Shown: positions 37,083-56,459 of the stretch, piece after piece
Numbering within the stretch: the first letter of the stretch is position 1
Layout: each line of letters opens with the position of its first letter
Source: Phycisphaerales bacterium
GTDB lineage: Bacteria; Planctomycetota; Phycisphaerae; Phycisphaerales; UBA1924
Direction of reading: 5' to 3'
Assembly (NCBI GenBank): GCA_035627955.1
Contig: DASPKU010000006.1
Location: forward strand, 1 to 64,000
Length of the DNA: 64,000 nt
Translations under genes and position numbers: made by a program
The notes under the pieces: generated by a model
Told to the model about the DNA's origin: nothing
The model's database searches: none
What the model saw: only the letters and a program-made list of their open reading frames with translations

Positions 37083-39752
37083 GTGCGTCCATCTACGATT
37101 CCATTGGTGACGATCGAACCGCGAAAGAGCGAGCGCAGCAGCGCGCCAGACGCGAGCGGGTTTGCGCGCGTGGAGGCGATCTTCTTCGAGGTCGCGGCCC
37201 ACTCGCCGCGGGACCGCGATGAGGCGATCCGGCGGTTGTGCGCAGGCGACGCGGCGCTGGAGAAGGAAGTGCGGTCGCTGGTGGAGGCGGCGGGGGACAT
37301 CGGGGCGTTCCTCGAGCAGCCGGCGCTGGGCAAGGACTTTGACCTCGCGAAAGAAAGCCAGCGGGCGAGCGGCCCAGACGAGATGATCGGGGCGACGGTG
37401 GGGGCGTTCCGGATCCGGCGGCGGGTGGCGTCGGGGGGCATGGGCACGGTGTACGAGGCCGTGCGGGCGGATGGGCAGTTCGAGCAGACGGTCGCGGTGA
37501 AGATCGTGAAGCGCGGGATGGACTCGGAGGAGATCCTGCGGCGGTTTTATGCAGAACGGCAGACGCTCGCGAGCCTGGACCACCCGAACATCGCGCGGCT
37601 CATTGACGGCGGGATGACGCAGGACGGGCGACCGTTCCTGGTGATGGAGTACGTCGACGGGCTGCCGATCGATGAATACTGCGACAACCAGCGGCTGAGC
37701 GTGCGCGAGCGGCTGAAGCTGGTGCAGGCGGTGGCGGGTGCGGTGCACCACGCGCACCAGAACCTGATCATCCACCGGGACCTCAAGCCCAGCAACATAT
37801 TGGTGACGGCGCAGGGGGTGCCCAAGCTGCTGGACTTCGGGATTGCGCGGCTGCTGACGGGCGGGCCCGAGGCGCGGGTGACGAGCGACACCGAGCGGCG
37901 GCTGACGCCGGAGTACGCGAGCCCGGAACAGGTGGAGGGGACGGCGCTGACGACCGCGAGTGACGTGTACTCGCTGGGCGTGGTGCTGTACGAGCTGCTG
38001 ACGGGGCTGCGGCCGTACTACTTCGGGGCGAAGACGACCGATGAGGTTCGGCGGGTGGTGATGTCGAGCGTGCCGGTGCCGCCGAGCGAGGCGGTGACGG
38101 TGCGGGCACGCCGGGTGGGGGCGACTCACGGGCGGGCGGCGTCGGTGGTGCCCGGCGCGGGCACGGGAGGGTCGTCGCTGGTGGTGGGGGGTGGGGCCCA
38201 GACGGGTGGCGAGGCGGCGGGGGTCGATATTCCCCGTACGCGGGGCGTGACATCGACGCGGCTGCGCGGGCAGCTGCGGGGGGACCTGGACAACATCGTG
38301 CTGATGGCCCTGCGCAAGGAGCCCGAGCGCCGGTACGCCTCGGTCGAGCAGTTCTCCGCGGACATTGGGCGCTTTCTGAGTGGGATGCCGGTGCAGGCGC
38401 GGCGCGACACGGCGTGGTATCGGGCGAGCAAGTTCGTGCGGCGGCACGCGGTGGGCGTGGCGGCAACGGCGGCGGCGCTGGTGCTGCTGAGCACGTCGAG
38501 CGTGGTGCTGTACCAGCAGGCAGGTCAGCTGGAGTCGCAGCGCAACGAGATCGCCGCGAACTATGAGGCGCTGTCGGAGAAGGAGCGGGCGATCTCGGCA
38601 AAGAACACGCAGCTGAGCGCGAGCCTGCGGTTCCAGCAGGAGAACCGAGCGTTCCTGCTCAACATCATCCGTGGCGGGGACATCCGCGATCAGGGGCCTG
38701 ACGCGAAACTAGGCGATCTGCTGCGCGACGCGGCCGCGACGCTGGAGGCTGATCCGCCCAAGGACCAGTTCACGTTCGCGGGCGCGCAGTACTCCATCGG
38801 CACGGCCATGATGTCGCTGGGGATGGTGAAGGAGTCGCGGACACTGCTGGAGGGGGCCGCGAGCGGCTTCGCGGGGCTGGATGAGGACGCGGATGCGCGG
38901 GTGGAGATCGAGGTCGCGCTGGCGGAGCAGCTGTTCTACGAGCGGAAGTATGAGCAGGCGGAGAAGCGGTTCCGCGAGCTGCTGGCGGAGGAGCGGGCGC
39001 GGAGCGGGGGCGTGCCGACAGCGCGCGAGGGGACGCTGCTGACGGACCTGGGGGCGTGCCTGCGGGCGCTGCGGCGCGAGGATGAGTCGATCCGGGTGCA
39101 GCGGGAGGCGCTGGACGTGCGCCTGGCGGTGCACGGCGAGCTGGACATGGACGTGGCGGAGACGCGCAATAACCTGGCGAGCTCGCTCTTTCAGAAAGGC
39201 GACTACGACGGGGCGGTCGCGGAGTACACCGAGTCGCTGGAGGTGCGGCGCACGCTGTTGCGGGCGGACCACCCTTCCGTGCTACGGGTGGAGAGCAACC
39301 TGGGGCTCGCAAAGCTGCGGGCGGGGAAGGTAGATGAGGCGATCGAGCTGCTCACGCACGCGGCGGAGGCGCGGGACAGGGCGTTTGGCCCTGAGCACGC
39401 GGGGCGGGTGGGAACGATGACGTCGCTGGCGATCGCGCTGCGGCAGAAGGGGCGGCACGAGGAGTCGATTGCGTGGCTGGAGAGGGTGCTGGAGTGGCAG
39501 CGGCCGCGCTTCGCGACGGACTCGCACCAGATCGCGGCGACCGAGGCCAATATCGGGATCACGCTGGCGGAGAAGGGCGAGACCGAGGCGGCCCTGGCCA
39601 AGCTGGAGGCGGCGTTGCCGCGGCTGCGGGCGGGGGGGAATGCGACGGCCGGGGTGCTGAAGTCGGCGTCGGAGTGCCTCGCGGGGATCTATGAGAAGGC
39701 TGGCCGGGTTGAGGAGGCGGTGGAGCTGAGGGAGGGTGTTGGGGCGAAGTAG
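37083..39752 (+). CDS. PknB-like Ser/Thr protein kinase with TM segment and TPR repeats
   Basis: An 889-aa membrane kinase. An N-terminal helical part of about 100 residues resembles the regulatory lead of planctomycete kinases. The kinase domain has GGMGTVYEA (119-126), Lys140 in VAVKIVK, HRDLKPSNIL from 231 and DFGIARLL from 251. A Gly/Ala/Thr-rich insertion of about 60 residues (338-395) lies before the last kinase helices (LRGDLDNIVLMALRKEP). One TM helix is at about 456-477, then about 400 residues of TPR-like helices. It is downstream of the ECF sigma gene by 24 bp, and most likely phosphorylates or controls it. The GTG at 37083 is used. Confidence 0.92.
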   Translation: MRPSTIPLVTIEPRKSERSSAPDASGFARVEAIFFEVAAHSPRDRDEAIRRLCAGDAALEKEVRSLVEAAGDIGAFLEQPALGKDFDLAKESQRASGPDEMIGATVGAFRIRRRVASGGMGTVYEAVRADGQFEQTVAVKIVKRGMDSEEILRRFYAERQTLASLDHPNIARLIDGGMTQDGRPFLVMEYVDGLPIDEYCDNQRLSVRERLKLVQAVAGAVHHAHQNLIIHRDLKPSNILVTAQGVPKLLDFGIARLLTGGPEARVTSDTERRLTPEYASPEQVEGTALTTASDVYSLGVVLYELLTGLRPYYFGAKTTDEVRRVVMSSVPVPPSEAVTVRARRVGATHGRAASVVPGAGTGGSSLVVGGGAQTGGEAAGVDIPRTRGVTSTRLRGQLRGDLDNIVLMALRKEPERRYASVEQFSADIGRFLSGMPVQARRDTAWYRASKFVRRHAVGVAATAAALVLLSTSSVVLYQQAGQLESQRNEIAANYEALSEKERAISAKNTQLSASLRFQQENRAFLLNIIRGGDIRDQGPDAKLGDLLRDAAATLEADPPKDQFTFAGAQYSIGTAMMSLGMVKESRTLLEGAASGFAGLDEDADARVEIEVALAEQLFYERKYEQAEKRFRELLAEERARSGGVPTAREGTLLTDLGACLRALRREDESIRVQREALDVRLAVHGELDMDVAETRNNLASSLFQKGDYDGAVAEYTESLEVRRTLLRADHPSVLRVESNLGLAKLRAGKVDEAIELLTHAAEARDRAFGPEHAGRVGTMTSLAIALRQKGRHEESIAWLERVLEWQRPRFATDSHQIAATEANIGITLAEKGETEAALAKLEAALPRLRAGGNATAGVLKSASECLAGIYEKAGRVEEAVELREGVGAK

Positions 39753-42162: not shown

Positions 42163-42163
<1 letters not shown>

Positions 42164-42729
42164 CAGCGGCTCACCTTCTTCTTGGTTGACTTCTTGACGG
42201 TCTTCTTAGTTGCCTTCTTCGCGGCGGGCTTGCTTGTCGCGGCCTCTTTGCTGGGCGCGGGCCTGCTCGCTTTGCCCATATTGCGGGGCGAGTGGGCGGC
42301 GAGGCCTTCCTCGTAGGCGGCGATGGCGGCCTCGGCGGTCTCGGACCTGATGAGGCGGCCGATGAGGTCGAGCGGAAGGTCTTCGAGCTTCTTGAAGCGG
42401 ATGCAGACCTTGCCCTTGTCGAGCTTCTTGCCGGTCTTGGCCCACTCCTTGGTGAACCAGTCGGCGCGGGACGTGTCGAGGTAGAGTGACATGTAGTTTT
42501 TCTGCGAGGCGAGGGCCGCGTAGGGGAGGGGCTGCTTCGGGTCGCAGTGGTAGCCGGCGGGGTAGACGCGGTGGGGGATGGCGTAGCAGATCATGCCGTA
42601 GGCCATTGTTTCCTCGATGTCCTTGTCGAGGTTGTCGAGGATGACCTTGCGCACGGCGGCGATGGCGGCGCGGCGGTCGGCGGGGAGCTCAGCGAGGTAT
42701 TGGGTGGCGGTGGTGGCTGAGGACTTCAT
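42163..42729 (-). CDS. DUF1801-domain protein with Lys-rich tail, inside the arginine operon
   Basis: A 188-aa protein. Residues 1-130 match the DUF1801/YdhG fold (QYLAELPADRRAAIAAVRKVILDNLDKDIEETMAYGMICYAIP, then DWFTKEWAKTGKKLDKGKVCIRFK). The last 50 residues are a histone H1-like tail (KPAAKKATKKTVKKSTKKK), which suggests nucleic-acid or polyanion binding. No enzymatic activity is known for the family. It sits between argG (5 bp upstream) and argH (1-base overlap), so it is an integral part of the operon although not known as an arginine gene. Whether it has any link to arginine metabolism is unknown. Confidence 0.8.
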
Positions 42730-47767: not shown

Positions 47768-49798
47768 TTAGCGGCTGACTTGCTGCATGGCCATTTCGAA
47801 CCACTGGTCGGCCTTGCTGGCCTCGGCGCGCATGACGGTCCAGCGGCGGCTGGCGGTGCGCTGGGCGGTGGACCAGAGGAGTTTGGCGGCGAGGCGGCGG
47901 GTGGGGCCGGCGTTGCGGCGGACGAGAGCGAGGAGGGGCGGGAGGCCGTGCTGCTGGACGAGGCGGTCTTCGAGAGAGACGAAGCGTTCCACGCGGCCGG
48001 GGTCACCCTGGCGGCCGGAGCGGCCGGCGAGCTGGCGGTCGACGCGCTGCTCGTCGTTGGCCTCGGTGGCGATGACGAGCAGGCCGCCGGCCTTGCGGGC
48101 CTCGGGGGAGAGCTGGATGTCCGTGCCGCGGCCGGCCATGTTGGTGGCGACGGTGATCGCGCCGGCGCGCCCGGCGCGGGCGACAATGGCGGCCTCCTCG
48201 GCCTCGCGGTTGGCGTTGAGCACGTCGCACTCGAGGGTGCGGGCGCGGAGGAGCTCGGCAACTTTCTCGGAGGTTTGCACGGACCAGGTGCCCACGAGGA
48301 CGGGCTGGCCGGCGCGGCTGGCCTGCTCGACGCGGTCGGCGACGGCCGCGAGCTTTTCGGCTTCGGTCGTGAAGACGCGGTCAGGGGCGCGGGTGCGGGC
48401 GATGGGTTTGTGCGTGGGGATGGGGACGACGGGCAGGCGGTACCAGGCCCAGAGCTCGCCGGCGACTTCGCGGGCGGTGCCGGTCATGCCCGCGAGGCGC
48501 TCGTACTTCTCGAAGAAGCGCTGGTAGCTGCTGCGGGCGACGGCGATGTTCTCGGCGGTGACCTTGAGGTTCTCTTTGGCTTCGACGGCTTGGTGGAGGC
48601 CGAGCTGCCACTGGCGGCCGGGAAGGATGCGGCCGGTGGAGCGGTCGACGATCATGATCTGGTCATCGCGGACGACGTAGTCCTCGTCGCGCTTGTAGAG
48701 CTCGCGGGCGTTGAGGGCCTGGAGGATCAGCTCTTCGCGCCGGCGGGGCCCGGCCCAGAACGGCGGAAGCTGTGCGGCGGCGGCGGCGAGGGCTTCGCGC
48801 CCGGCGTCGGTGAGGGTGACTGTGCGGTGGCGGTGGTTGACGGAGTAGTGGGTCTCGGGCGTGAGTCCGGCGGCGATGCGGGAGGCGGTGGCAAAGTGGT
48901 CGGTCTTGGCGTCGTCCCCCTTGCTGCTGATGATGGCGGGGGTGACGGCCTCGTCGATGAGGACGCTGTCGGCCTCGTCGATGATGGCGGCGAAGAGGCC
49001 GCGTTGGACGACTTTGCCGTCCCAGCGCTGCTGGCGGTTGGCATCGAGGATGTCGTCGAGGAGGAGGCCGGTGAGGCGGGGCAGGAGCGGGGAGGCGAGG
49101 CGGTCGCGGAGGTGGTCGAAGATGACCTGTTTGTCGGCGGCGTAGGTGATGTCGGCGGCGTAGGCGTCGCGGCGCTCGTCGGGCTTGGAGGCGTCCTGGA
49201 TGACGGCGACACGGAGACCCAGGCGTTTGAAGGCGGGGGTGGTGATCTCTGCGTCGCGCCGGGCGAGGTAGTCGTTGACGGTGATGACATGGACGCCGCG
49301 CCCGGACCATGCGTCGATGGTGGCGGCGAGGATGGCGGTGACGGTCTTGCCTTCGCCGGTGGCGAGCTCGGCGCAGCAGCCGCTGGAGAGGGCGAGGCCG
49401 CCGAGGACCTGCTCGGGGTGGAGGGAAAAGCCAATGGTGCGTCGCACGGCCTCGTACGCAGCGGCGTGGGCGCGGTCGATGGCGGTAGGTTCGGTGCGGG
49501 AGACGATCGCCGCGGCGCGGGCGTCGGCGACTTCGCTGGTGAACGCGGCCTCGCTGAAGGTGGAGAGTTTTTTCGCGGCTTCGATGATGCGGTGGACGCG
49601 TGGCCAGTCGAGGCGGCGGGCGCGGCGGCGGGCGATCCAGCCGGTGAAGGATTCGCCGAGGGCGTCAAAGCCCTTGAGGACCTCGCGGCGATCTCGAGCG
49701 GCGGCGACCATGGGCCAGAGGCGGCGCGAGGTGGCGTCCGAGGGTGGGCGGAGCCACGCGTGCGGGTCAACGCTGGGCGTGCGGGAGAGGGCGGTCAT
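47768..49798 (-). CDS. short SecA-like ATPase (accessory SecA)
   Basis: A 676-aa DEAD-type motor related to SecA but shorter than the 840-950 aa of housekeeping SecA. Walker A ATGEGKT at 146-152, NDYLARRDAE at about 175, IDEADS at 273-278, the SecA-specific DRSTGRILPGRQWQLGLHQAVEAKE from about 385, MTGTAREVAGELW, TNMAGRGTDI at about 552-561 and LAGRSGRQGDPG. The C terminus stops about 60 residues after motif VI, so the helical scaffold/wing domains and the zinc tail are mostly missing. The ATG overlaps the stop of the M50/HlyD gene (ATGA). It may drive a dedicated export step or unfold a substrate for the neighbouring protease. Confidence 0.87.
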   Translation of the reverse strand: MTALSRTPSVDPHAWLRPPSDATSRRLWPMVAAARDRREVLKGFDALGESFTGWIARRRARRLDWPRVHRIIEAAKKLSTFSEAAFTSEVADARAAAIVSRTEPTAIDRAHAAAYEAVRRTIGFSLHPEQVLGGLALSSGCCAELATGEGKTVTAILAATIDAWSGRGVHVITVNDYLARRDAEITTPAFKRLGLRVAVIQDASKPDERRDAYAADITYAADKQVIFDHLRDRLASPLLPRLTGLLLDDILDANRQQRWDGKVVQRGLFAAIIDEADSVLIDEAVTPAIISSKGDDAKTDHFATASRIAAGLTPETHYSVNHRHRTVTLTDAGREALAAAAAQLPPFWAGPRRREELILQALNARELYKRDEDYVVRDDQIMIVDRSTGRILPGRQWQLGLHQAVEAKENLKVTAENIAVARSSYQRFFEKYERLAGMTGTAREVAGELWAWYRLPVVPIPTHKPIARTRAPDRVFTTEAEKLAAVADRVEQASRAGQPVLVGTWSVQTSEKVAELLRARTLECDVLNANREAEEAAIVARAGRAGAITVATNMAGRGTDIQLSPEARKAGGLLVIATEANDEQRVDRQLAGRSGRQGDPGRVERFVSLEDRLVQQHGLPPLLALVRRNAGPTRRLAAKLLWSTAQRTASRRWTVMRAEASKADQWFEMAMQQVSR

Positions 49799-52032
49799 GC
49801 CTCGGCCTTGTCAGCGACAAACATGCGGACCTTGCGCCACCACTGGGAGAGGAGGGGCTCGGGCTGTACGCCGAAGCGGACCTTGGCGCGGAGGCCGGGC
49901 TTCCAGCCCGCGAGGACCTCGGTGTTGCTCACGTCGGGGGCGACCTCGACGACCCAGTGCGGGGCGACGGTGGTGTTGGACTTCTCGGGAGCGGCGGGGT
50001 CGGCGATGACGTCACCGCCGGCTTTGTTGGTGAGGGACTCGCCCGCGACGCGGCGCGACCCGGCGGGCGCGTTACGGATGAGCTTGCCGGGGATCTCGTC
50101 TTCTGCACGCCCGCGGACGCGGATAGAGGCTTCGACGCCCTCGACGGTCTCGCCGACTCGCCCGCGGAAGATGTAGCCCTCGTCGCGGTCGGCGACGATG
50201 CAGCGGACGAGGAGCTGGTCGGTGGTGGCAATGGTTGCGAGAAGGGCGCCCTTGCTGAAGAAGCCGCCGGTGAGGCGGTCCATGTCGGTGCCGAGTCCGG
50301 CGGCGGGGACGACGCGACCAGCGGTGGTGGCGCGGAGGGTGAGGGCGTCTGCGCGCTCCTGGGCGCGGGCGAGGGCACGCTCGGCCTGGCGTAGGCGGGT
50401 CTCGGCGAGGAGGCGGTCGGCGTGGGGCGCTGAGATGGTGGCGTCGGCCTCCGCCTGGGCGTTGTCGTAGACGGCGCGGGCGGCCTCGAGCTGCGAGATG
50501 ACCTCGGCGTTGTACAGGGTGGCGATGGGGTCGCCGACGTTCACCTGCTCGCCAGCGCGGACGTGCACGAGCTTCACAAACCCGTCCTCGGTGGGGCGGA
50601 TTGGCTCGAGGCTCGCGGGCTCGAGCGTGCCCGTGGCGTAACCGGCTGCGGGGACGGGGATGAGGCCCAGCGCCGCCGTGATTGCTGCGAAGAAGACGGC
50701 GGTGATGGTGAGGGCGCGGGCTCGCCGGCCCATGAGCATGGGGTCGGTGAGGAGGAAGCCGATCGCCTTGAGCAGCGGCCAGAGCAGCCAGCAGGCCCCG
50801 GCGATGACGGCGAGGACCGCGCCGAGGGTGAGGTAGTCGGGGTTGGTCCACAGCAGCAGGACGATGCTGGCGACGACGAACATGCGGTAGGGCCAGGAGA
50901 GCAGGCCGAAGGAGAGGAGGAGCCAGAACTCGCCGGTGCTGCGGACGTGTGGCGGGCGGACGTTGGCGACGCGGTAGATGTAGCGCTGGAGGAGGAACTT
51001 GATGAGCTGCTGGGCGCGGGGGGCGAGGTTCGCGGAGCCGGTGACGTCGGAGAGGACGTAGTAGCCGTCGTAGCGCAGCAGCGGGTTAAGGTTGAAGATG
51101 AGCGTGGTGACGCCCGAAATCAGCATGGTGTTGAAGAGCAGCGTGCGGGTGAGGCCCGAGTCATCGCGCCCCATGTACGACCAGGCGATCGCGGCGATGG
51201 CCGCGAGCACGGACTCAAAGAGCACGCCGCCGAGCGAGACGATGACGCGCTTCCAGACCTCTGGGAGGCGCCATGCGCTGGAGGTATCGCAGTAAGGGAA
51301 GGGGAGGACGAGGGCGATGACCATGAGGCCCATCTCGGTGCAGCGGGCGCCCATGGCCTTGCAGGCCGCGGCGTGGCCGAGCTCGTGCCAGGCGCGGAGG
51401 ATGGTGAAGGCGACGCCCATCCAGATGAGGTTGCTGGGGTCCAGGACGTTGTTGAGCTGATCGCCGATGGCGCCGCGGTTGAGGAACACGCGGTAGAGGG
51501 CGAAGGTGATGAGGGCGAGCCAGAGGGCCGCGCCCCACTTTGAGAAGACGAGGGCGAGGAGGTGTTTGCTGCGCTCGAGCCAGGGCTCGGGGTTGAGGAG
51601 GGGGATGGTCATGGAGACGCCCCGCCCATGGCGGAGGGCGACCTTGCGGGCGCGGGCCTCGCGCCGGCGGAGCTCGACCATGTCGGCGGCGAGGGGGAGG
51701 TCGCCGTGGAGCAGGCCGTAGAGCTGGAGGCGGCTGAGCAGATCGACGCACTCCTTCTGCGTGGGTGCGGCGTCGCCGAGCTGGGCGTTGCAGGCCTGCC
51801 ACGCGTCGTCGATGGTGCGGCGGCCGTCGAGCAGTCCGATGAAGAAGTACGCGGCCTCACTCATGCGGTAGTACTGGCCGCCGGCGGGGTCTTCGATGAT
51901 GAAGGTGGTGTGGGCGCCGAAGCGTTGGCGGATGACCTGGGCGTGGGGCGAGAGGCGCGGGCGGGTGGGGCCGACGCGGTACCACAGGTCGCTAAAGGTG
52001 CCGGCGGAGTCCTGGCGGAGGAGCTTGAGCAT
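49795..52032 (-). CDS. PqqD-like / M50 site-2 protease / HlyD fusion protein
   Basis: A 745-aa membrane protein of unusual build. Residues about 33-112 look like a PqqD-type winged-helix domain (RMSEAAYFFIGLLDGRRTID). From 165 to 455 there are about ten hydrophobic segments with HELGH at 216-220 and NPLLRYDG at 316-323, the zinc ligands of M50 (site-2) proteases. From about 465 there is a biotinyl-lipoyl/HlyD-like barrel with a coiled-coil hairpin (EDGFVKLVHVRAGEQVNVGDPIATL, then AHADRLLAETRLRQAERALARAQERA). The gene starts 2 bases after the GAF-HlyD gene and overlaps the secA-like gene. Inferred role: cleavage and/or export of a peptide. Confidence 0.85.
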   Translation of the reverse strand: MLKLLRQDSAGTFSDLWYRVGPTRPRLSPHAQVIRQRFGAHTTFIIEDPAGGQYYRMSEAAYFFIGLLDGRRTIDDAWQACNAQLGDAAPTQKECVDLLSRLQLYGLLHGDLPLAADMVELRRREARARKVALRHGRGVSMTIPLLNPEPWLERSKHLLALVFSKWGAALWLALITFALYRVFLNRGAIGDQLNNVLDPSNLIWMGVAFTILRAWHELGHAAACKAMGARCTEMGLMVIALVLPFPYCDTSSAWRLPEVWKRVIVSLGGVLFESVLAAIAAIAWSYMGRDDSGLTRTLLFNTMLISGVTTLIFNLNPLLRYDGYYVLSDVTGSANLAPRAQQLIKFLLQRYIYRVANVRPPHVRSTGEFWLLLSFGLLSWPYRMFVVASIVLLLWTNPDYLTLGAVLAVIAGACWLLWPLLKAIGFLLTDPMLMGRRARALTITAVFFAAITAALGLIPVPAAGYATGTLEPASLEPIRPTEDGFVKLVHVRAGEQVNVGDPIATLYNAEVISQLEAARAVYDNAQAEADATISAPHADRLLAETRLRQAERALARAQERADALTLRATTAGRVVPAAGLGTDMDRLTGGFFSKGALLATIATTDQLLVRCIVADRDEGYIFRGRVGETVEGVEASIRVRGRAEDEIPGKLIRNAPAGSRRVAGESLTNKAGGDVIADPAAPEKSNTTVAPHWVVEVAPDVSNTEVLAGWKPGLRAKVRFGVQPEPLLSQWWRKVRMFVADKAEA

Positions 52033-52034
52033 GG

Positions 52035-53987
52035 TCACCACCACATCCGCATGCGGACTTCGTCGATGACAGGCCGGAGGACCCATGTGAGTGTGGTCGT
52101 GGTGCCGTCGTCGAGCTTGATGGTGCCGGTCATGCCGGGGCGGAGCCATGCGGCGGCCCCCTCTTCGAGGGCTCCGGTGATCTCGACTTCGGCGAGGTAG
52201 ACGTTCTTGCCGCTGACGACCTCCGCCGCGGGGTTCACGCGGACGACCTTGACGGGGACCTTCTTGCCGGGCTGAGAGCGGATGACCATGTGGCCGGTCA
52301 TGCCGTCCTTCACGCGCTGGGCGTCCTTCTCGTCGATGTGGGCGACAGCGCGCTGGTCGCGGCTGACGATCTCGTAGAGGGGTTGCGTGGGGTCCACGCG
52401 GGCGCGGATGAAGGACTCGAGCTCGCCGCGACCGATGAGGCCGTCGATAGGGGCGCGGATGTCGGCGCGAGTGATGTGGTCGCGGAGGAGCGCGGCATGG
52501 GCGGCGGTCTCTTCGACCTGGGATTGGTAGCCGCGGTGCTTGCCGACTTCGCCGCGGGCGAGGGCGTCGTTGGCCTGGATGGTGAGGGAGTCGAGCTTGG
52601 CATCCGCCTCGGCGAGCTCGAGGACGAGGTCGCTGGTGTCCATGGTGGCGAGGACCTGGCCCGCGGCGACGGCGTCGCCGGGCTTGACGTTCACGCTCTT
52701 GAGGTAGCCGGTAAAGGGCGCGACGATGGTGCGGGACTGCTTGGCCTGCACCTCCGCGCCGGCGGTGACGCGGCTGGGGATGGGGACCACCGCCGCGAGC
52801 AGGAGGACGAGCCCGATGAGCGAGAGCAGGAGCTTCGCGCCGGTGTGGCGGGGGCTGAAGACGGTTTCGGCGAGGTCGTAGAGGCGGTCGCGGGTGACGG
52901 CGAGCACGCCGCGGTCGGCCAGGCGGCGGGTCCAGAGCGCGGGGCCGATGGTCTCGGCGACGAGACGCAGCAGCGGCACGGCGCCGGAGGGGAAGGGGTC
53001 GCCGGCGGCGCGCTCGAGCACGACGACGCCGACGAGGTCGCCCTCGACGCGGAGCGGGAGGCTGAGCACGGCGGAGGGGCCGAACTTGCGGGAGAGCTCG
53101 TCGTGGGCGCGAGTGACGCGGCGCTGCGAGGGGTCGTGCTCGTGCTCCAGCGGCGCGGGGTAGACGAGCTCGCAGTCCTGGGCGGCGCACTCTTCCATGG
53201 CCTCTTCCAGGGCCTGCACGGCGGCGGCGTTGCGGTCGACCTCGTCGGCGCCGGTGACGGCGGAGAGGCGGATGAGGTGGCGGTGCACGAGGCCGATGGA
53301 GACGCGGGTGCAACCGAAACGGCGCTGCAGCTCGTTGCACATGATCGCGCCCATGGTGCCGGCGCTCTGGCCCTGCTGCGAGGTGTCGAGCAGTTCGAGC
53401 GTCTCGCGGAGCATGAGCGTGCGCTGGGCCTCGGCGAAGGCCTGCTGCTTCCAGAGGTAGGCTTCGAAGTGGGCGACGCTGAGCATGAGGGCGCGGAGGG
53501 CGTCCTCGTCGGCGGCGTTGCCGCGGGATTTCAAGGCGAGCACGCAGGCGCCCTCGGTGCGGCCCTCGGCGGTCAAGGGCGCGGCGATCAGGCGGTGGCG
53601 GACTTCCTCGCCGTACAGGGCGCCCTGGGAGCGGGCGAGTGAGATGGTGTCCATGCGGCCCTGGGGCGGGCGGCCGGGCTCGGGCTTCTCGATGCAGAGC
53701 TCGCCGGCGAGGCGCTCCATGCGGGAGAGCACGGCGGGGGCGAGGATGGGGGTGGTCTCGTTGGCGGGCTGGTGCTGGGCGAAGAGCGCGGGCTTGCGGG
53801 CGGCGCCGCCGGCGATGAACACCGCGCCGCCCATGGCGCCCACGAGGGAGCACTGCATCTGGAGGAGCTGGAGGAGGAAGGCCTGGAGGTCGCGGGTGGC
53901 GCGCTCGTTGGGCGGCGGACCCCCGGCGACGGGCTCGCCGGGCTGTGAGAGATCGACCACGGTCTCAGTTGATTGGCCGCTCGCCAT
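52035..53987 (-). CDS. GAF-domain HlyD-type membrane fusion protein
   Basis: A 650-aa protein. Residues 31-180 and 205-355 look like two GAF-type sensor domains (ALYGEEVRHRLIAAPLTAEGRTEGACVLAL; CTRVSIGLVHRHLIRLSAVTGAD, then AVLSLPLRVEGDLVGVVVLERAAGDPF). One TM helix is at about 385-402. After it comes a periplasmic HlyD/membrane-fusion region: IVAPFTGYLKSVNVKPGDAVAAGQVLATMDTSDL, a short hairpin and IRAPIDGLIGRGELES. Cytoplasmic GAF domains on an adaptor are rare and suggest ligand control of export. The start at 53987 has AAGGAA seven bases upstream. It is the first gene of the three-gene operon. Confidence 0.85.
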   Translation of the reverse strand: MASGQSTETVVDLSQPGEPVAGGPPPNERATRDLQAFLLQLLQMQCSLVGAMGGAVFIAGGAARKPALFAQHQPANETTPILAPAVLSRMERLAGELCIEKPEPGRPPQGRMDTISLARSQGALYGEEVRHRLIAAPLTAEGRTEGACVLALKSRGNAADEDALRALMLSVAHFEAYLWKQQAFAEAQRTLMLRETLELLDTSQQGQSAGTMGAIMCNELQRRFGCTRVSIGLVHRHLIRLSAVTGADEVDRNAAAVQALEEAMEECAAQDCELVYPAPLEHEHDPSQRRVTRAHDELSRKFGPSAVLSLPLRVEGDLVGVVVLERAAGDPFPSGAVPLLRLVAETIGPALWTRRLADRGVLAVTRDRLYDLAETVFSPRHTGAKLLLSLIGLVLLLAAVVPIPSRVTAGAEVQAKQSRTIVAPFTGYLKSVNVKPGDAVAAGQVLATMDTSDLVLELAEADAKLDSLTIQANDALARGEVGKHRGYQSQVEETAAHAALLRDHITRADIRAPIDGLIGRGELESFIRARVDPTQPLYEIVSRDQRAVAHIDEKDAQRVKDGMTGHMVIRSQPGKKVPVKVVRVNPAAEVVSGKNVYLAEVEITGALEEGAAAWLRPGMTGTIKLDDGTTTTLTWVLRPVIDEVRMRMWW

Positions 53988-55938: not shown

Positions 55939-56268
55939 TTACTGGCTGAGGCGGGGGCTGCCGCCCTTGCCCGACTGCTGGCCGGAGATGTTGATCTCGC
56001 CGTTGCGCTCCTCGAACTGGCGGACGACCTGGCCGAGGCTGATGGCGAGGCGCTTGGCGCCCGCCCAGTTCATGACGACGCGGCTGCCGACGGAGAAGAC
56101 GAGAACGGGGGTGTTGTTGTCGGGGCCGGGCTGGGGCAGGTTCATGCCGAAGTCGAGGACGACCTCGTCCTGCGTGGTGGAGGTGCGGATGGTGTTGGCG
56201 TAGGTCGAGCTCATCTTGGACTCGTCGATGCGGAGCTGGACCTGCTTTGTTTCCTGGTTGTCGGCCAT
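55939..56268 (-). CDS. DUF3467 family protein
   Basis: A 109-aa protein of a widespread bacterial family of unknown role. Typical blocks are SKMSSTYANTIRTSTTQDEVVLDFGMN and SRVVMNWAGAKRLAISLGQVVRQFEERNG. Beta-rich, soluble, no signal. The start is the ATG at 56268 with GGAAGG nine bases upstream; an ATG at 56277 directly abuts the Shine-Dalgarno and is less likely. A strong terminator follows, so it is a monocistronic gene. Confidence 0.87.
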   Translation of the reverse strand: MADNQETKQVQLRIDESKMSSTYANTIRTSTTQDEVVLDFGMNLPQPGPDNNTPVLVFSVGSRVVMNWAGAKRLAISLGQVVRQFEERNGEINISGQQSGKGGSPRLSQ

Positions 56269-56459
56269 GTGTTTCATCCTTCCGCCCGGCGGGACTATTC
56301 CCGGGGCTATCGTGCAAATGCCCGGTCGCGTTGTGGTGGCTCGCGCCGCGCTCGGCGCCCGCGGCAACTGGCCCGGGCGTCATCCCCCTGTTGTTGGTGG
56401 GAGGGGACTGTAAGCCGGAAAGCCCGCTGGTCCAGCGGGGCGGTTGCTCTATCGGGAAG

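Follow-up and report, generated by a model that had tools for sequence, protein, structure and literature searches.

A stretch of 64,000 nucleotides from a Phycisphaerales bacterium (contig DASPKU010000006.1, positions 1 to 64,000; hereafter the window) carries a minus-strand operon of three genes, encoding a GAF-HlyD membrane-fusion protein (MFP), a PqqD-M50-HlyD fusion and a short SecA-like ATPase. We propose, with a probability of about 0.72, that this operon is an export or processing system for proteins bearing the N-terminal LEPR-XLL domain, many of which are giant extracellular proteins. The operon itself has been published before: in the passages retrieved, Kamneva, Poudel and Ward (PLoS One 2015; PMC4452313) described the same locus with a secondary SecA_DEAD protein, GAF/HlyD, Peptidase_M50/HlyD, HlyD and sometimes OEP, called its role unknown, and also put forward a type I-like exporter in which SecA would be the ATPase and the M50 protein the pore. 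The window operon fits that locus in having GAF/HlyD, M50/HlyD and SecA_DEAD genes together, and what is added here is a candidate substrate, the LEPR-XLL giants. The terms PqqD and cadherin were not found in the main text of that paper, and its retrieved passages do not mention LEPR-XLL, DUF3467, an RRE-like fold (RRE, RiPP recognition element; RiPP, ribosomally synthesized and post-translationally modified peptide) or a SecA-less clade. Likewise, the retrieved passages of published accounts that use the name LEPR-XLL give no export route, one of them mentioning a giant of ~8000 aa with LEPR-XLL and RTX domains, and the passages on SecA and giant proteins in PMC3482391 are unrelated to the locus. 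No publication tying LEPR-XLL to the operon was found in the PMC literature, a scope outside which bioRxiv and most subscription journals lie.

The layout given in the preliminary description was confirmed: the three genes are intact, a 2-bp gap separates genes 1 and 2, and genes 2 and 3 overlap in an ATGA. The operon and its parts lie as follows.

52035..53987, minus strand: gene 1, 650 aa; GAF domain(s), one predicted membrane helix and a HlyD-type MFP; ATG at 53987 after AAGGA
49795..52032, minus strand: gene 2, 745 aa; PqqD/RRE-like domain, M50 site-2-type protease and HlyD/MacA-type membrane-fusion domain
51703..51966, minus strand: PqqD-like domain of gene 2, residues 23-110; PF05402 match and a fold like that of the leader-peptide-binding lasso B1 protein
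51373..51387, minus strand: HExxH metal site of gene 2 (H216, E217, H220; further invariant residues N316 and D322), from an alignment of 66 sequences
49825..50661, minus strand: periplasmic adaptor domain of gene 2, residues 458-736, from a VIA-align structure match
47768..49798, minus strand: gene 3, 676 aa; short SecA-like ATPase without helical wing, helical scaffold or C-tail
49343..49360, minus strand: Walker A of gene 3 (TGEGKT), with GEGK invariant in the alignment

Genomes that hold the M50-HlyD clade of this operon largely coincide with genomes that hold LEPR-XLL proteins. Up to three gene-2 candidates were scored per genome, and the clade thresholds were set after the score lists had been viewed (P0004, E<1e-70; A1, E<1e-140; a second M50-HlyD clade, 1e-60 to 1e-130); in Pseudomonadota the best E-values per genome are separated by a gap (1e-145 to 1e-122), in Planctomycetota by no clear gap, and G051 (3.4e-66) falls outside the clade although locus L030 has a SecA-like gene alongside. 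Among 299 Pseudomonadota genomes, 37 held the clade and 39 LEPR-XLL, with 30 holding both, 7 the clade only, 9 LEPR-XLL only and 253 neither (Fisher p 1e-26). The 294 Planctomycetota genomes gave a similar table (clade 21, LEPR-XLL 18; both 15, clade only 6, LEPR-XLL only 3, neither 270; p 7e-18), as did a count by family label in the same phylum (both 9, clade only 3, LEPR-XLL only 2, neither 78; p 1.3e-8), in which the 92 families are the highest label seen among those listed and so at least 92. Eight of the nine Pseudomonadota LEPR-XLL genomes outside the clade have the second M50-HlyD clade, and one has neither. At E<=0.001, LEPR-XLL was found in 55 of 70 genomes behind our named loci (17/20 and 38/50) versus 39 of 299 in the Pseudomonadota draw, and in none of 14 control genomes. 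The named loci number 80, the best 80 of at least 592, a sample that leans towards the clade of the window operon; the 70 asked for LEPR-XLL leave out L042, L047, L050, L055, L057, L066, L069, L093, L098 and L117.

LEPR-XLL giants also adjoin M50-HlyD genes. For at least 25 of the 51 Pseudomonadota LEPR-XLL starts, spread over 20 of 39 genomes, the giant's frame and an M50-HlyD gene are no more than 15 kb apart; this is a lower bound, as it is based on three gene-2 candidates per genome among the matches listed and on ten second-clade places. The giant lies upstream on the same strand in 16 of these 25 (12 with the operon clade, 4 with the second clade), downstream in 3 and on the opposite strand in 6, and in 13 of the 25 a same-strand gap of 1.7-2.7 kb leaves room for one gene. 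Adjacent frames reach 14,920 residues when the giant is upstream and 15,434 when it is downstream. Many of the 24 non-planctomycete loci that were mapped have a very large frame next to the operon, and in seven loci with the start in view (L094, L100, L102, L104, L106, L107 and L108) the giant frame opens with LEPR-XLL; the NCBIfam model NF012209 (LEPR-XLL), tried on L102, matched. Four second-clade regions (L188, L189, L190 and L191), picked because both matches shared one contig, likewise hold a LEPR giant (for example one with ‘LEPRILLDAA’), HlyD genes and M50-HlyD, with TolC confirmed in L188 and L190. According to passages of two papers, the operon of Methylorubrum extorquens AM1 is META1p2399-2402 (PMC4452313), and the genomic island META1_2402-2415 includes META1_2412, which spans 47.5 kb and encodes an RTX-type protein of 15,831 residues (PMC2680597). 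The META1_2412 product is a candidate cargo. In a Methylorubrum populi genome with the operon (L111, G657), a frame of 5,428 residues has a LEPR-XLL start.

The N-terminal motif of the proposed cargo, the LEPR-XLL domain of NF012209, follows the consensus [LF]-E-x-L-E-P-R-x-L-L-S-A-D over 61 N-termini, in which the first E occurs 57 times, P 47, the two L 58 and 56, S 48, A 47 and D 46. These N-termini were returned from 61 of the 62 loci asked by a regular expression with [LMVI]-E-x-R as a required element, which by construction makes the E and R of ExR fully conserved. A hydrophobic stretch resembling a signal peptide was found in two of the 61 (mean hydropathy 1.8 over 15 residues, a threshold of our own setting with no positive control). 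The three cargo regions scanned contain RTX repeats (two of the three), laminin-G, cadherin, DUF4347 and FlgD-like domains, and LEPR-XLL frames extend to 19,427 residues among the matches listed; one match, in G165 (L135), lies 504 residues inside its frame and is probably false. The linked candidates are LEPR-XLL proteins, most of them very large, and the earlier suggestion that the system exports a peptide is probably wrong.

The genome of the window itself appears to hold at least three LEPR-like proteins, judged by motif. The pattern E-x-R-x-L-x-A-A-D has three matches there, all N-terminal, and the reversed pattern has none; a looser limit for NF012209 also brings up N-terminal LEPR-like motifs in long frames. 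One open frame of 8,469 residues on contig C1 (L184 608-19999, L185 3-6014) starts with a LEPR-like motif; a Pfam scan of 5,135 of its residues gave no match. A LEPR-like subtilase in a 1,882-residue frame on contig C19 (L186 1210-6828) has a P-domain and a C-terminal Anabaena sensory rhodopsin transducer (ASRT) domain. The same genome has a second complete operon on contig C7 (L183 4817-11274), with GAF-HlyD-like, M50-HlyD and short SecA genes, in which Pfam gives the first gene no GAF match at E<=0.001 and around which no DUF3467 gene was seen.

LEPR giants might instead leave the cell by classical type I secretion through an ATP-binding cassette (ABC) transporter, MFP and TolC, with the operon confined to processing or regulation, for example cutting the tag for surface release. 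There is a model for such an arrangement, as LapBCE is a type I system for giant adhesins and LapG frees LapA from the cell surface by cutting it. Two of the three cargo regions scanned have RTX repeats, as type I substrates typically do, and exporters of the type I ABC family LssB (E<=1e-180; 101 of 299 genomes) are somewhat enriched in LEPR-XLL genomes, at 21 of 39 versus 80 of 260 others. This association is weak, however, with an odds ratio of 2.6 (p 0.005) versus 120 for the operon clade, and among the LssB places listed none lies within 15 kb of a LEPR-XLL frame on the same contig (judged by eye; the nearest is ~78 kb away, in G600). A processing role, moreover, needs no SecA-family ATPase, and we consider this route unlikely. 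The type I secretion system (HlyB-HlyD-TolC) and the operon do share MFPs, a TolC-type channel near some loci and RTX-rich cargo in some loci, whereas the window operon has a SecA-like motor, an M50 protease and an N-terminal cargo tag, with no ABC ATPase found alongside.

The operon is widely conserved. Of 66 named loci in which the M50 gene has more than 1.5 kb on either side, 64 carry all three genes on one strand and in order; L049 and L100, the exceptions, have no SecA match. The count of 64 comes from tblastn spans and takes in weak SecA matches at L065 and L114 (100-112 bits) as well as L112, in which a SapC gene intervenes. Adjacency based on longest open reading frame (ORF) starts gives 55 of 66, an undercount because these starts are over-extended in several loci. 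The 80 best loci are spread over Planctomycetota, Gamma-, Beta-, Alpha- and Deltaproteobacteria, Nitrospirota, Elusimicrobia, Spirochaetales and Opitutales, and within Planctomycetota, 93 of the 294 genomes searched have relatives of gene 2. The preliminary description had suggested tabulating gene neighbourhoods and had allowed that the homologues might be found mostly apart; for the window clade they occur together, which supports the conserved export-type system with a SecA-like motor that it proposed. Its remark that these parts are seldom seen together was mistaken, as the combination spans several phyla and has been in print since 2015 (PMC4452313). The SapC-family gene of L112 (12200-13051), between M50-HlyD and SecA, belongs to a cluster that recurs in 10 named loci, of which the L112 member was scanned.

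The Pfam matches of gene 3 are to SecA_DEAD, to SecA_PP_bind and to the SecA P-loop domain, the last over its first half. The protein consists of a DEAD motor, a preprotein-binding domain and a second motor domain. Among the 25 listed matches to solved SecA sequences, no stretch extends past residue 642 of 676, and for this reason the helical wing, scaffold and C-tail are taken to be missing. The Walker A GEGK, the DEAD-box DE and the GRxxRxG motif are invariant in 47 sequences. A decayed SecA copy was rejected on the grounds of these invariant motor residues, and the window genome also contains a long SecA frame of 1433 aa on contig C22 and a second short SecA on contig C7. Of the length-filtered candidates, 65 of 74 entered alignment A2, 48 of 67 alignment A3 and 46 of 63 alignment A4, each joined by the window protein.

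Conceivably, the short SecA could be the motor of an accessory Sec (SecA2-like) pathway that runs through the housekeeping SecYEG, with the HlyD proteins acting in another process. The motor core is clearly that of a SecA, scoring 455.7 bits against the accessory SecA2 model TIGR03714, yet the cut-off of that model is 930, the canonical SecA model gives 548.7 bits versus a cut-off of 814, and gene 3 stays below the cut-offs of all NCBIfam SecA and SecA2 models. The missing helical scaffold and wing, together with a gene order with two MFPs that is kept across phyla, further argue against this role, which we regard as quite improbable.

Gene 2 exceeds the Pfam cut-offs for PqqD (PF05402; 26.4 bits versus 23.4) and Peptidase_M50 (28.1 versus 27.2), and it also matches HlyD. 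In its AlphaFold2 model (mean predicted local distance difference test (pLDDT) score 91.7), residues 23-110 resemble the lasso-peptide B1 protein solved with a leader peptide (6jx3_B; VIA-align Z 9.8, root-mean-square deviation (rmsd) 2.7, 83 aligned) and, with a tied score, the C-terminal domain of GdmN (7vzz_B; VIA-align Z 10.3, rmsd 2.4, 86 aligned). The RRE fold binds leader peptides. Because of the fold match to 6jx3_B and the Pfam PqqD match, the N-terminal domain is read as an RRE, which it resembles, and leader binding is predicted. Residues 458-736 resemble MacA/MexA-type adaptors, the best match being a MacAB-TolC chain (9qgy_G; VIA-align Z 16.8, rmsd 2.0, 220 aligned). Residues H216, E217, H220, N316 and D322, the HExxH and distal N/D metal ligand motif of M50, are invariant in 66 sequences, and cleavage by the M50 domain is plausible for that reason. 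From these sequence features, all parts of the operon look functional. The preliminary account of the second gene as an M50 site-2-type protease fused to PqqD-like and HlyD domains, and of the third as a SecA-like motor without most of its C-terminal domains, was borne out.

The daptide metalloprotease (NF041824) is likewise an M50-type membrane protease, and its model covers residues 27-424 of gene 2, PqqD part included, but gene 2 reaches only 159.3 bits against a cut-off of 300; YydH/LiaK (NF058609), also an M50-type membrane protease, again leaves gene 2 below the cut-off. In contrast to both, gene 2 has an MFP domain, and its proposed cargo is large proteins rather than short peptides. 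That a small processed peptide is exported, with the tie to the giants an indirect one through habitat or genome size, would suit this resemblance to the RiPP metalloproteases of daptides and epipeptides, but it is very improbable given that LEPR giants adjoin M50-HlyD genes and that no RiPP enzyme or ABC exporter was found among the ORFs scanned around the window operon, where small peptide genes were not searched for.

In Pfam, gene 1 matches one GAF and HlyD. Its AlphaFold2 model (mean pLDDT 90.4) shows, at ~26-153 and before the Pfam GAF, a further GAF-like order of helices and strands, judged from secondary structure alone, and the helix at 382-400 is predicted to span the membrane. Of the GAF-like sensor domains first described in this protein, one therefore stands as a Pfam GAF and the second as a GAF-like order of secondary structure in the model. 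Additional components accompany the operon in some loci. Of the 68 named loci in which 600 bp or more precede GAF-HlyD, the window locus (L115) included, 27 have a DUF3467 homologue 6-227 bp upstream of it, and the DUF3467 protein is likely a fourth component of the system; the gene in the window was absent from the preliminary listing.

55939..56277, minus strand: DUF3467 gene, ~112 aa from the first ATG (PF11950, 59.8 bits), with a Ppx/GppA gene between it and gene 1

A third HlyD gene follows SecA in L044, L079 and L102, TolC (OEP) genes were confirmed near the operon in L062, L076 and L103, and an ABC gene lies near the operon at a single locus, L074.

We can combine these parts in a model for the export of LEPR-XLL proteins, in which each finer step has roughly an even chance of being right. 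The cytoplasmic PqqD/RRE-like domain of gene 2 would bind the N-terminal LEPR-XLL tag as a leader, and the short SecA-like ATPase, in place of an ABC ATPase, would push the chain, unfolded, into the membrane. The two HlyD-type proteins, M50-HlyD and GAF-HlyD, could form an inner-membrane platform and a periplasmic tube, which would dock on a TolC-type channel encoded nearby or elsewhere. The M50 site would probably remove the tag during or after passage, and the GAF domains may gate the system via a cytoplasmic signal. The direction of transport that we infer is export. More tentatively still, and with slightly less than even odds, the operon could represent a separate class of secretion system, in which a motor of the SecA family and an intramembrane protease that reads the leader act with two MFPs as a one-step conduit dedicated to very large proteins, with LEPR-XLL as a cleavable export signal; the sister clade would do the same without an adjoining motor gene.

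Several observations weigh against an export or processing role for LEPR-XLL proteins. As already pointed out in the preliminary description, no substrate gene adjoins the window operon, and the window genome is LEPR-negative at E<=0.001, the best match to NF012209 having an E-value of 0.0037 (20.0 bits versus a 17-bit cut-off). No LEPR-XLL match was obtained in 15 of the 70 genomes behind named loci. Adjacency is rare in Planctomycetota, in 3 of 18 LEPR-XLL genomes (G230, G231 and G284; counted by eye), with the LEPR-XLL genes mostly scattered. The short SecA is without the regions that SecA normally uses to cooperate with SecYEG. No SecA match was present in the four second-clade regions read, and the motor is therefore not universal; within the operon clade itself, L049, L100 and L193 have no neighbouring SecA match, and L100 and L193 adjoin a LEPR giant. 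Finally, the genome-level co-occurrence tests count genomes regardless of kinship, for which only the family-level count adjusts, and the clade in these tests was assigned by gene 2 alone and not by SecA genome by genome.

The surroundings of the operon in the window consist of arginine genes on one side and Ppx/GppA, sigma-70 and DnaG genes on the other. No ABC transporter or TolC was found among 20 ORFs on both sides (28.3-63.9 kb), the range to which the OEP search in this genome was confined, in agreement with the earlier observation that neither an ABC transporter nor an outer-membrane channel adjoins the operon. A DUF1801 gene (42163-42729, minus strand) sits between the argininosuccinate lyase and argininosuccinate synthase genes, and a Ser/Thr protein kinase with C-terminal TPR repeats is encoded at 37083-39752 on the plus strand. 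A role in defence was rejected, as PADLOC gave no match for four proteins.

If the proposal is correct, it would provide a function for the LEPR-XLL domain and for a locus left unexplained in 2015, and it would give an exit route for some very large bacterial proteins. It would also mean that a SecA-family motor can drive a TolC-type conduit instead of an ABC transporter. Both claims, export of LEPR-XLL proteins and a SecA-driven conduit, are testable in a tractable bacterium.

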